Source: Paracoccaceae bacterium
GTDB lineage: Bacteria; Pseudomonadota; Alphaproteobacteria; Rhodobacterales; Rhodobacteraceae
DNA length: 32,338 nt
Reading direction: 5' to 3'
NCBI GenBank assembly: GCA_024227755.1
Contig: JAAEUB010000153.1
Coordinates: 1 to 32,338 of the forward strand
Shown: piece by piece, positions 23,738 to 27,874 of the stretch
Numbering within the stretch: position 1 is the first letter of the stretch
How the letters are laid out: every line of letters starts with the position of its first letter
Position numbers and translations under genes: made by a program
The notes under the pieces: generated by a model
What the model saw: only the letters and a program-made list of their open reading frames with translations
What the model was told of the DNA's origin: nothing
Databases searched by the model: none

Positions 23738-24430
23738 TCACTCCCCGATGGCAAAGACCATATTCACACTGGCGCTGATGCTCAACTCACCGGACGCTAC
23801 CGGCATTGCCTCAAAACTGGCCGCCCCCCTCGCCATCATGACAGGTGCACCACCGCCGCCGCCATCGCTTATGGTCAATACCGGACCCAGCTCAACGCCA
23901 GCGGCTTCCGCCAGTAAGGCCGCACGCGCCATCCCATCTTTAACCGCCGCAACTCTTGCTTCTTCCTGCAGCGGCTCTGGTACTTGAAGACCAAAGCGCA
24001 AGCCATTGAACTCATTGGCTCCATCTTCAGCCACCTGATCGAGTATCCGCCCCAGAGACGCCAGATCACGCACCCTGATCGTGATCATGTTAGAAGCTGA
24101 AAATCCCGTGATCTTCGGCGGCTCGTTTGAGGATGACGAGCGGCTGGAAAACAGCGGATGCAGGTTGAGGTTGCTGGTTTGCATGTCCCGCGGCGCAATT
24201 CCTGCCGCTTCAAGCCGGGTAAAAACACGTGCGGTTACGGCTGACACTTCTGCCAAAGCTTCCCCTGCCTGGCGCGCCTGGCTGGTTGTTCCAAGGGTGA
24301 TCGTTGCCATATCCGGCTTGGCTTCAACCTGCCCCTGCCCGGTCACCGAGATGGTGCGAGATGCCTCCTCGGCCATAGCAAAAGGTGCGAAAAGTATCAG
24401 AAATCCGGCTAATTGTACCAATAGACGCAT
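23738..24430 (-). CDS. SIMPL-domain (DUF541) periplasmic protein
   Basis: The 230-residue exported protein has a signal peptide (about 1-20, ending AMA) and then the SIMPL hallmark EEASRTISVTGQGQVEAKPDMATITLG. Further family blocks are GIAPRDMQTSNLNLHPLF, ITGFSASNMITIRVRDLASLGRILDQV and the C-terminal ISASVNMVFAIGE. The family is widespread in the envelope and linked to stress responses without a settled biochemical role. The ATG at 24430 follows AAGGAGGAAAAAA. It is a single gene, convergent with the hydrolase-OsmC gene. Confidence 0.92.
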   Translation of the reverse strand: MRLLVQLAGFLILFAPFAMAEEASRTISVTGQGQVEAKPDMATITLGTTSQARQAGEALAEVSAVTARVFTRLEAAGIAPRDMQTSNLNLHPLFSSRSSSSNEPPKITGFSASNMITIRVRDLASLGRILDQVAEDGANEFNGLRFGLQVPEPLQEEARVAAVKDGMARAALLAEAAGVELGPVLTISDGGGGGAPVMMARGAASFEAMPVASGELSISASVNMVFAIGE

Positions 24431-24598: not shown

Positions 24599-27500
24599 AT
24601 GAAACCGAATTTTGCGCTGAATCTCAGTCATGATGGCATCGGGTTATTTCACCGGACCAATGGAAGTAAAGACGGCTGGACGCTGATCGGCCAGGTCGCC
24701 CTTGATGACGACGAGTTGGGCACAAAGCTTGCCATCCTGCGCAAGACCGCTGCTGATCTGGAAAAAGGCGGGGTGGCAACCAAGCTGATCATCCCAAACT
24801 CACAAATCCTGTATACCGAGGTGGAAGCTCCTGGCCCCGATGACATCACCCGCGAAGTGCAAATCAGGGCCGGTCTCGAAGGATTAACCCCTTATGATGT
24901 CGGTGAACTGGTTTTCGACTGGCGCAAGGGTAAGGGCAATAAGGTAATGGTCGCGGTTTTGGCCCGCGAAACCCTGAGTGAGGCCGAGCAATTTGCCAAA
25001 GAGCATCGGTTTAATCCTGTCAGCTTTGTTGCCCGTCCCAACAATAAAGGCTTCAAGGGCGAAGCGTTTTTCGGTAAGGCCACTGGCGCCGCCGCCCTGC
25101 TTGGAGCTGGCGAACGGATAGAGCCGGATCAGAAAGCGGTTCCTGATCTCAAGGTGGAAAAACCTGATCGGTCGGCAAAAGCACAGCAACCGCCAGAAAA
25201 ATCCCCACCAGAGGAACCCAAAGTCGCGCCCGCAAAAACAGCGGATATACCCCTTGCGGGGAAAGACGACGGACCTGATGCCGGGGAAAAAGCCGCGAAG
25301 AAAACCGGGGCAACCCCTTCTGACGCCGCCGCAGAATCAACTGTAGAACCAGCCACAAAGCCAGTTAAAGCGTCGCCCAAGCCCACCGCAAAAGAAACGG
25401 CGTCGAAAACCGAAGCCCGGCCCGATACCGCGCAACAGACAGCGCAGGTGGCGCAGGCAGATACGGAAACACTCACCGGCCCCCAAGAGGACGACGCGCG
25501 TATTGAGGCACTTCTGGCTGAAGTGGCCGAACCTGAAGCAAAAGAGCCCGAACCGGACACTTCCGGCGATCAGAAAAAGCCGCAAAACCCAGCAAAGTCA
25601 AAAGCCCGGGCAAAATCAGCTGCAAAATCAGCTGATAATCAGCCCCCCGCACCGGTTTTGGCACCGTTCCCCCCGACGCCGGAAGCCGAAGACGACGAGC
25701 CTACGCCTTTCATGCCCTCGCCGCCTCCGCCACCGCCGCGCAGGCAATTGCCGACCGGACTGCACGTCAAAACAAGCGTACCAAAACCAGCCACACGCGT
25801 TGTTACGCCGAGTGGAAGCAACCCCTTTTCAACGCCGCCAAGCAAATCGGCACAAAAAGTTGAACCCGGACCAGCTGCGGCGTTCTCTTCACGTCGCAGC
25901 GGCGACGCGTTGGCAGGCAAAAGCACAGCCGCCCTTGGCGGCAGCACCCGCAAGCAAAAGCGGCGGTTTTCCCTGACCGAAAGCCTTTCCACCATAAAAT
26001 CGTCAACCGGATCTGTCGCCGGCATTGCGACGAAAATCGCAGCCCGCAGACCAGCCGCGGGAAAATCCCCCCAGGGAACCAGCCCTTCCCTTACCGCGAA
26101 TAAGGGCGGTAGCAGCCAGGCGACCTCTGGTGATGGGCCGGGGGCAATAAACAGCCTGTTTACCCGCGCAACATCCGGTGCGCAGGAATTGTTAAATCGG
26201 GCGAAAACGACAAGGGCCGCCCCAGTTGTGAACGGCGCCGACAAGGCTTCGGGTAACAATGACACCCGCCCGGTTCTTCCCGACCCGACACCTAAGCCCA
26301 AACCAACAGCCAAACCGCTGATGGCTGACAGGGCACATCTGGGCAAGACGGGCCAGGGAAAGACCGGATTGCAGGCGACACCAGTTACCGCCAAGCCCAA
26401 TCCGGACCAACTCACCCCATTGAACATTGCCAAGCCTGCCGATAGTGAAGCCGACCGGCTGACCATGTTTGGTGCGCGCAAATCACAAAACCCCGATATT
26501 GGCGGCAAGCCAAAATACCTTGGACTGGTTCTGATCCTGATCTTGCTGCTGGTGATGGCGGTAACCGCACTTTCATCGGTGTTTTTCTTTTCTGACAGTT
26601 CATCGCTGTTCGGCCGGGGTGACGAAAACGAGTTCGCCGCCGCTGCGGTGCCGGAGATAACAACGACCATCGCCGGGACCGATGTAGGAAACACACCGGC
26701 ACCGCCGCGCCCGACCGCGCCGCAAACACCTGCCACAGGCGACGCAGGCTCTGGTGAGACCGCACCGGTTCCGTCCGGGCAAGGTGATCAGGCCGCGCTT
26801 GATCAGATTACTACAGACCTTATGAACGACGCCGAACCGGAACCCGAGCCTGAATTGCCCAGCCCGACGCCGGACGAAACCACAGAAACCATGACTGCGA
26901 CCACCACGGCACCGCAAAACCCGCTGGGGCTAAGTGAGGACACCGCCCAATCGCATTATGCGGCAACCGGGATCTGGCAAAAAGCGCCCGACCCTCTGGG
27001 TGAGCCGCAAAGCAGCCGGATCGACGAACTTTATGTGGCATCAATCGACCCTGCCATTTCGTCGCAAGACGCGGTGGCACTTCCCTCAGGTTCCGCTACA
27101 GCGCAAGAGGCTCGGCCCGCCACCCCCCTGCCGCCGCCGGAAGCGGGAACCAGTTTCGCCTTTGATGATCGCGGATTGGTGACACCAACACCCGAAGGCA
27201 CCCTGTCGCCCGATGGCATATTGATTTATTCGGGCAAGCCCCCGATTGTACCGGACCCGCGACCGGGCACCGCGCCTGTGCCAGCAACCATCGCGCCGGA
27301 TGTTTTGCAAGGATTTCGCCCGCATCCGCGCCCCGCCTCGCTGATCGAGGATAACGAGCGCGCAAATCTGGGTGGCGCAACCCTGGCAGAACTGGCGGTA
27401 CTGCGCGCGCCGGTGCGTCCGGCCTCGCTCCAGGCTCAGGCTCAGGCCGAAGCAGGCGCAGACACCGCACCGAACGAGCTTGCCATCGCCGCCTCACCCA

Positions 27501-27874
27501 CCCCGGGCTATCGCCCCGGCAACTTTTCAACTATCGTGGAGCGTGCACGCGAGAACGCAGATGCATCCGACGGATCCGTCGTGGTCGCGGCCTCTGCCGC
27601 TGCGGTCACTGTGCCCTCAATCCCCACTCGTGCTTCGGTGGCCACCCAGGCCACAATCAACAATGCTCTTAGTCTTAATCGCATCAACCTGATCGGTATC
27701 TACGGCTCCTCCACCGACCGCCGCGCTTTGGTGCGCCTTTCCAGCGGGCGATATGTAAAAGTCTCGGTCGGTGACAGGCTGAACGGTGGCAAGGTGGTGT
27801 CGATCACCGAAACCCGGCTGATTTACACGAAAAGCGGCAGGAACAAGACGCTGGATATCCTGCCACTGGGCTAA
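24599..27874 (+). CDS. 1091-residue protein with GspL/PilM-like N- and PilP/GspC-like C-terminus
   Basis: Residues 1 to about 165 form a globular domain (FALNLSHDGIGLFHR, KLIIPNSQILYTEV, VFDWRKGKGNKVMVAVLARETL) that reads like the start of an actin-like GspL/PilM cytosolic domain. A long disordered, Lys/Pro/Ala/Glu-rich stretch follows, with a polyproline block near 372-381, up to a single transmembrane helix at about 640-664 (YLGLVLILILLLVMAVTALS). Then comes a Pro/Thr-rich periplasmic linker. The last 64 residues (1028-1091: NLIGIYGSSTDRRALVRLSSG, VSVGDRLNGGKVVSI, RLIYTKSGRNKTLDI) resemble the PilP/GspC homology region. Such proteins are often mislabelled IF-2. No other secretion or pilus genes are nearby. 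The ATG follows TTAAGGCGATT. Fold assignments are by resemblance. Confidence 0.75.
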   Translation: MKPNFALNLSHDGIGLFHRTNGSKDGWTLIGQVALDDDELGTKLAILRKTAADLEKGGVATKLIIPNSQILYTEVEAPGPDDITREVQIRAGLEGLTPYDVGELVFDWRKGKGNKVMVAVLARETLSEAEQFAKEHRFNPVSFVARPNNKGFKGEAFFGKATGAAALLGAGERIEPDQKAVPDLKVEKPDRSAKAQQPPEKSPPEEPKVAPAKTADIPLAGKDDGPDAGEKAAKKTGATPSDAAAESTVEPATKPVKASPKPTAKETASKTEARPDTAQQTAQVAQADTETLTGPQEDDARIEALLAEVAEPEAKEPEPDTSGDQKKPQNPAKSKARAKSAAKSADNQPPAPVLAPFPPTPEAEDDEPTPFMPSPPPPPPRRQLPTGLHVKTSVPKPATRVVTPSGSNPFSTPPSKSAQKVEPGPAAAFSSRRSGDALAGKSTAALGGSTRKQKRRFSLTESLSTIKSSTGSVAGIATKIAARRPAAGKSPQGTSPSLTANKGGSSQATSGDGPGAINSLFTRATSGAQELLNRAKTTRAAPVVNGADKASGNNDTRPVLPDPTPKPKPTAKPLMADRAHLGKTGQGKTGLQATPVTAKPNPDQLTPLNIAKPADSEADRLTMFGARKSQNPDIGGKPKYLGLVLILILLLVMAVTALSSVFFFSDSSSLFGRGDENEFAAAAVPEITTTIAGTDVGNTPAPPRPTAPQTPATGDAGSGETAPVPSGQGDQAALDQITTDLMNDAEPEPEPELPSPTPDETTETMTATTTAPQNPLGLSEDTAQSHYAATGIWQKAPDPLGEPQSSRIDELYVASIDPAISSQDAVALPSGSATAQEARPATPLPPPEAGTSFAFDDRGLVTPTPEGTLSPDGILIYSGKPPIVPDPRPGTAPVPATIAPDVLQGFRPHPRPASLIEDNERANLGGATLAELAVLRAPVRPASLQAQAQAEAGADTAPNELAIAASPTPGYRPGNFSTIVERARENADASDGSVVVAASAAAVTVPSIPTRASVATQATINNALSLNRINLIGIYGSSTDRRALVRLSSGRYVKVSVGDRLNGGKVVSITETRLIYTKSGRNKTLDILPLG

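Follow-up and report, generated by a model that had tools for sequence, protein, structure and literature searches.

A single-chain GspL-GspC chimera is a core protein of one alphaproteobacterial family and is kept in genomes without a detectable secretin

The closest described counterparts of the protein analysed here are inner-membrane platform proteins of type II secretion systems (T2SS) and type IV pili. GspL, encoded in gsp operons, consists of a cytosolic domain, a single transmembrane (TM) segment behind it and a periplasmic domain of the GspL/PilN-type family, whereas GspC and PilP hold an HR domain that a periplasmic linker connects to the inner membrane. A PDZ domain or a coiled-coil can follow the HR domain of GspC, but neither is universal and some known GspC proteins end at the HR domain. 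According to the accessible portions of PMC3169554 and PMC9239104, the HR domain binds the N0 domain of the secretin. Fusions involving such proteins have also been described. GspB and GspAB, as far as the accessible portion of PMC9239104 covers them, have a single TM segment, a variable linker, an HR domain and, in some cases, a fused cytosolic domain, which is the GspA ATPase or DUF3391; they act on the secretin and form a scaffold between the membranes and the cell wall. In Pseudomonas putida, the two neighbouring platform proteins PilO and PilP of a pilus system are fused, with the HR domain at the end (PMC3169554, accessible portion).

The gene under study occupies positions 24599..27874 of the plus strand in a 32,338-nucleotide stretch (the window) of contig JAAEUB010000153.1 from a Paracoccaceae bacterium. 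It is an uninterrupted open reading frame (ORF) with an ATG start, and this ORF call together with a layout conserved among relatives defines a single-pass GspL-GspC chimera of 1091 residues. The anatomy of the protein is near certain. A GspL/PilM-type cytosolic domain (residues 1-165; 24599..25093) is followed by a Pro/Ala/Glu-rich cytosolic linker (approximately residues 175-621; 25121..26461), judged to be disordered from its composition and poor conservation, and by the juxtamembrane motif TMFGAR (residues 622-627; 26462..26479), whose FGAR part is present in 37 of 65 relatives. Hydropathy reveals one strong hydrophobic segment, the TM helix at residues 643-661 (26525..26581; mean KD 2.93), as in GspL, and lysines preceding it lead us to expect an N-in/C-out topology. 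The periplasmic linker includes a conserved part (residues 780-985; 26936..27553) with RP..RP boxes, and RPxxRP or RPxRP boxes occur in 61 of the 65 relatives. The chain ends with a short helix and an HR domain of the GspC/PilP type (residues 1004-1091, core 1027-1090; 27608..27871). All of these features lie on the plus strand. The initial annotation had described linkers of about 475 and about 360 residues around one TM helix; by the boundaries set here they measure 468 and 342 residues. Proline makes up about 15% and alanine about 21% of the linkers, while cysteine ranges from none to 0.1%.

Compared with GspL, the window protein has no match to the GspL/PilN-type periplasmic family and carries the HR domain in its place; searches of the whole protein with Pfam and NCBIfam at E<=10 returned only PilP/GspC, at the C-terminal end. 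Compared with GspC, the chain stops at the HR domain with neither a PDZ domain nor a coiled-coil after it. Unlike PilP, it shows neither a signal peptide at its N-terminus nor a lipobox on inspection by eye, and its N-terminal end is a folded cytosolic domain. It resembles GspB/GspAB in overall plan, but the cytosolic partner is of the GspL type, and it differs from the PilO-PilP fusion in its N-terminal partner. Our literature search, with few subscription papers within reach, returned no paper whose listing describes this protein; the accessible portion of PMC2241609 mentions 29 Rhodobacterales-specific proteins, many of them hypothetical.

An AlphaFold2 model of the N-terminal domain, computed from 18 family sequences, has a mean pLDDT of 92.4 and a pTM of 0.87. 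In a Foldseek search of this model against the PDB, GspL occupied ranks 1-5 (E 5.8e-9) and PilM ranks 6-14 (1.4e-5), with FtsA after them. VIA alignment likewise placed GspL first (Z 11.3, rmsd 3.3, 150 aligned residues), before PilM (Z up to 10.4), FtsA (up to 8.4) and DnaK (up to 7.5). The modelled domain is thus assigned to the actin-like superfamily with GspL as its nearest member; PilM has the same fold but is more distant. The sequence tie to GspL is weaker than the fold tie. Pfam matched no family in the N-terminal domain of the window protein, its T2SSL family matched 3 of 18 N-terminal domains and, in a wider set, none of 52 at E<=0.01, and no PDB chain was matched by our N-domain sequence profile. 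The best sequence link comes from the reverse profile search: a 52-row profile (A4) found GspL-like ORFs in T2SS-type operons of 5 of 285 genomes of the class outside the family (best E 4.8e-13), each adjoining GspM- and GspC-like ORFs. Two rows of A4 were later recognised as unfused GspL; a 68-row rebuild, with these rows removed and those of the family profile A1 added, recovers all five GspL ORFs (E 3.9e-10, 7.1e-10, 8.2e-8, 1.2e-5 and 5e-5, values that refer to a small ORF set). Homology to alphaproteobacterial GspL is therefore detectable at the level of sequence profiles.

The model of the C-terminal domain has a mean pLDDT of 80, with the HR part mostly above 90. Foldseek ranks 1-7 against the PDB were all HR domains of PilP or GspC (7.9e-4 to 0.08), and chance matches followed. 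In VIA alignments the HR domain of GspC reached Z 9.9 (rmsd 1.6, 60 aligned residues) and PilP Z 7.7-9.2; the group of HR and HR-like folds extended down to Z 6.5, and the next rows stood at 3.4. For the window protein taken by itself, sequence comparison gives weak evidence: Pfam PilP gave E 0.092 on the whole protein and 9.5e-4 on its HR region (below cut-off), NCBIfam gave PilP at 4.7e-5 and GspC at 1.4e-4 (both below cut-offs), and the HR profile searched against PDB sequences had a sole GspC match (E 1.2), ranked behind ribosomal protein L2 (0.06). Pfam PilP matched the HR regions of 19 of 19 relatives at E<=1 (best 4e-4). The suggestion of the initial annotation that the two ends are GspL/PilM-like and PilP/GspC-like is hence borne out by Foldseek and VIA for both predicted structures, and by the N-domain profile that finds GspL genes.

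An alignment with 16 relatives shows both ends (1-165 and 1005-1090) to be conserved around a single TM segment; the cytosolic linker is poorly conserved and the periplasmic stretch better so. We inspected 84 loci for layout (78, and 6 added later). In 65 of them both ends lie on one ORF, N-terminal domain first, main TM segment between and HR domain last, with protein lengths from 614 to 1431 residues (median 994). The cytosolic linker of these proteins ranges from -6 to 544 residues (median 325), and the TM segment stands directly behind the N-terminal domain, as in GspL, only in L049, L133 and L134; most fused members have a long cytosolic linker, and fused members have no gsp operon around them. 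The periplasmic linker ranges from 285 to 693 residues (median 370) and is never shorter than 285, a length of at least 285 residues being a feature that sets these proteins apart from GspC and PilP. The other 19 loci comprise cuts at contig ends (L032, L033, L138, L312, L313, L316), a stretch of 100 N (L314), a locus with the C-terminal part alone (L050), unfused genes of genomes G021 and G012, spread over two contigs in either genome (L135, L136, L145, L146), other genes (L147, L148, L149) and four loci (L048, L137, L315, L317) with the ends in two ORFs and no contig end between them. Locus L048 looks like two true genes, while the two-ORF state of the other three may reflect splits or sequencing shifts.

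The arrangement is not an orphan, which goes beyond the initial annotation; almost every family genome that we examined has it. The 196 genomes of the order that we searched all belong to a single family, presumably that of the window, and profile A1 matched the N-terminal domain in 195 of them, with one match listed in 193 and two in G105 and G179. The exception, G180, has a 614-residue ORF with a divergent N-terminal domain (4.2e-7) and an HR end. Outside the family, A1 matched none of 285 genomes of the class. The fused gene is a core gene of this family. Among the best 80 of 499 loci, the carriers that have a name belong largely to Rhodobacteraceae such as Sulfitobacter, Roseovarius (including R. 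nubinhibens ISM) and Marivita, which is why the window is presumed to belong to the family as well. In a first set of 25 family genomes the N-terminal domain was found in 21; the gene is cut at contig ends with the C-terminal part visible in G003 and G004, G019 has a 223-residue secreted C-terminal part only, and neither end was found in G002 (99% complete). A plasmid origin was rejected, as a plasmid collection held no match to the window. The HR profile matched 12 of the 285 outside genomes, and by our own reading of the sequences several of these matches lie beside secretin-, GspM- or ATPase-like ORFs.

The distribution of the gene can be compared with that of the known HR partner. The secretin profile had a match in 188 of the 196 family genomes and none in the other eight (G062, G094, G201, G206, G223, G095, G178 and G210), the first five of which belong to one genus (g43). 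All eight retain the N-terminal domain and seven retain the HR domain; in the eighth, G223, the gene runs off the contig end and the HR domain is out of view. Both ends lie in one ORF in six of the eight, and in two ORFs in G094. The T2SSE ATPase had no match in four of the eight (G062, G201, G095, G178); it fell below the cut-off in G223, gave short matches in G094 and G206, and in G210 corresponded to a cpaF-like gene preceded by an insertion-sequence-like ATPase at the contig start. Since G210 keeps cpaF in this setting, it is weak evidence. Draft assemblies can hide a secretin, and the window genome itself is 90% complete. HR bit scores remain high in the secretin-less genomes G178 (133), G210 (114) and G095 (105), two of the eight scoring as well as genomes that have a secretin (130 for the window), whereas those of genus g43 are much lower (63-74), which is compatible with relaxed constraint there. 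Neither the STN domain (PF07660) nor the GspD N0 domain (PF21305) was found in any of nine genomes (the window genome and the eight without a secretin), and the N0 search was positive in 5 of 5 GspD-bearing controls. In these nine genomes the known partner of the HR domain is thus undetectable, yet the HR end is kept. Retention of the gene in genomes without a detectable secretin suggests that it has another job across the envelope.

We therefore favour, with moderate confidence, the reading that the GspL-GspC chimera has been reused as a secretin-independent tether from the cytosol to the outer envelope. By analogy with GspL-GspE and PilM-PilN (titles of PDB entries 4pht and 2ych), the N-terminal domain would dock a putative cytosolic partner, while the TM helix would anchor the chain in the inner membrane and the long Pro-rich linker with its conserved RP boxes would span the periplasm and the cell wall. 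The HR domain might grip a putative periplasmic or outer-membrane partner in the manner of HR-N0 binding (PMC3169554 and PMC9239104, accessible portions), and a single chain would in this way couple an activity in the cytosol to the outer envelope. The bridge between cytosol and periplasm put forward in the initial annotation accordingly holds as a predicted topology, whereas a working mechanical bridge is what the proposed tether would add to it.

A role at a pilus secretin is possible in most genomes, since secretin and gene co-occur there, and the protein could be the adaptor between inner and outer membrane that is so far missing from the family's Tad pilus, its HR domain docked on the secretin of that pilus and its GspL-like end on the ATPase. 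The secretins of the gene-bearing genomes are mostly 460-540 residues long, like the Tad secretin of the window genome, whose one secretin match sits in a tad-type locus; moreover, the accessible portion of PMC10499894 notes that Tad lacks a homologue of GspC or PilP and raises the possibility that it needs one. However, the same portion describes a Tad secretin with a VirB9-like N-domain in place of N0, and the Tad secretin of the window genome shows PF13629 and no N0 family. The gene also lies outside the tad-type locus, which is on another contig (C40), and is kept in the eight genomes without a secretin match. We consider this adaptor role unlikely, if marginally more likely than the other alternatives.

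It is also improbable that the two halves work separately with no bridging, the HR part acting alone and the cytosolic part being a leftover or a regulator. Linker lengths vary very freely, G018 encodes the halves in a pair of overlapping genes, the second start being preceded by a ribosome-binding-like GGAGG, and the N-terminal half appears dispensable in G019, because only the secreted C-terminal part is kept there. But 65 loci carry both ends in one ORF, and across 52 divergent rows the well-conserved N-terminal domain has 6 columns that never vary and 20 that hardly do. That the protein is an accessory part of a T2SS or type IV pilus encoded elsewhere in the genome is very improbable: both domains stem from such systems and the gene accompanies GspD N0 domains in four family genomes, but the only secretin and only T2SSE match of the window genome lie in its tad-type locus, the T2SS operons of the family have GspL-, GspM- and GspC-like ORFs of their own (by position and size, one GspC being profile-matched), and most family genomes have no second, GspD-sized secretin among the matches listed.

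The fused protein has a traceable ancestry, which the initial annotation did not address: a gspL-gspM-gspC cassette is its very probable source. In genomes G021 and G012 the fused gene is absent, and gspL, gspM and gspC lie unfused near metY instead; a gsp-operon location is found only for these unfused cassettes, that of G012 in part. In G021, contig C23 bears a metY-like gene, an MshEN-T2SSE ORF (an ATPase) and a gspL reaching the contig end, and contig C119 ends on the same 97 bases, inside gspL, and continues with gspM (T2SSM_b 4.6e-8, above cut-off) and a 281-residue gspC-like gene with an HR end. This is the one relative with an ATPase beside the three genes. In G012, a GspL-like ORF stops close to the end of one contig, a metY-like gene lies some 3 kb behind it, and a second contig begins with gspM (T2SSM_b 3.4e-14) and a 514-residue gspC-like gene; no contig overlap was found, and the gspL is presumed to adjoin gspM-gspC. 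The order L-M-C in T2SS-type operons is given by profile matches on both sides in L304, L305, L307 and L311, and by position and size in the remaining ones.

Trees were rooted on T2SS GspL+GspC, and the second of them took 17 of the 58 rows with a long linker. The unfused pair and the fused forms that lack a cytosolic linker (G180, G008) branch earliest, G005 comes next and then the rest. The early group, adjacent to T2SS GspL+GspC, consists of the unfused two and three fused forms with almost no cytosolic linker. The order of the earliest branches is unsure, as these are long and treekit gave a warning that long branches meet. Because the unfused parts share the neighbourhood of metY with many fused genes (a metY-like gene is upstream of the fused gene in 35 of 68 loci), collapse of the cassette is the most likely origin of the giant protein. 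A deletion spanning gspM may have joined the front of gspL to the end of gspC with loss of the inner parts of both, and disordered sequence would have been inserted on the cytosolic side after the fusion.

A broader reading, plausible but tentative, is that the protein is a family-wide core connector, in which a T2SS platform (L-M-C) collapsed into one chain and was reused free of the secretin, with the steps from unfused cassette to linker-less fusion and to long-linker fusion still readable today. If the connector reading is true, a building block otherwise seen only in secretion and pilus machines became a core gene of a large family, even in genomes without a detectable machine, and the HR domain would have a new class of partner. 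The protein would then be a natural case of a nanomachine platform reduced to a single chain, offering a direct route to binding partners of GspL-like and HR domains other than GspE and secretins, and a defined target for work on the envelope of an abundant group of bacteria.

The surroundings of the gene were also analysed. The window has 94 ORFs of at least 90 residues, most of them overlapping, and 28 further ORFs were chosen for a Pfam scan. None of these 28 belongs to a secretion or pilus family, nor is a GspA or GspS gene among them, in keeping with the earlier statement that no other gene of such a machine is in the window; 4 of the 28 match no family. No secretion cluster recurs in at least 6 of 68 loci, and we found no conserved genomic link to a different process, which the initial annotation had named as evidence against its reading. 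Control by the envelope regulator CenR was rejected: with a matrix from the 14 binding sites printed in the accessible portion of PMC9275681, scores above the 95% shuffle level occur in 5 of the 65 upstream regions, where about 3 are expected by chance, and the region upstream of the window gene scores low. A function deduced from the neighbourhood was likewise rejected, as the frequent neighbours are housekeeping-like and variable. Their names are our own sequence reading, except for SIMPL, CobT, CobS and CarD, which are Pfam matches. An antiporter-like ORF lies downstream in 34 of 68 loci and a CobT-like neighbour is present in 20. The divergent neighbour in the window is a SIMPL/DUF541 gene (23738..24430, minus strand), for which we claim no partner role; a SIMPL-like ORF stands beside the fused gene in 25 of the 68 loci.

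Split or reduced forms of the fused gene, which joins a GspL/PilM-type cytosolic domain to a C-terminal HR domain of the GspC/PilP type, include those of two genomes, G018 and G019. In G018, the two halves are encoded as two genes on the (+) strand (locus L048:8860-10343), where the stop of the first half-gene overlaps the start of the second, which is preceded by GGAGG. Only the C part is present in G019 (L050:9051-9722, +), as a signal-peptide-like product of 223 aa in the same kind of locus, with SIMPL- and metY-like genes adjoining.

The HR profile search listed a second HR match in 3/4 family genomes and a single match in the window genome. Second HR-like ORFs, besides the fused gene, are stand-alone and encode 99-145 aa; they lie at L085:5041-5340 (-), after purF- and cvpA-like genes, L147:4585-5022 (-) and L148:4021-4365 (+), and no obvious signal peptide is present in these three. 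Small genomes from a different family (0.9 Mb; L194, L198) also have an HR-domain ORF, with an ATPase-like ORF on one side and a TM protein on the other. Loci L273 and L279 have identical coordinates on contigs of equal length, in records titled Flavobacteriia MAG and Roseobacter, one of which is probably mislabelled.

The unfused gspL-gspM-gspC cassette of G021 is adjoined by an MshEN-T2SSE ATPase (L319:1017-3896, -), whose two domains are separated by a long low-complexity stretch. In G210, a family genome without a secretin match, one contig opens with an insertion-sequence-like ATPase, directly followed by a cpaF-like gene (L149:1-2000).
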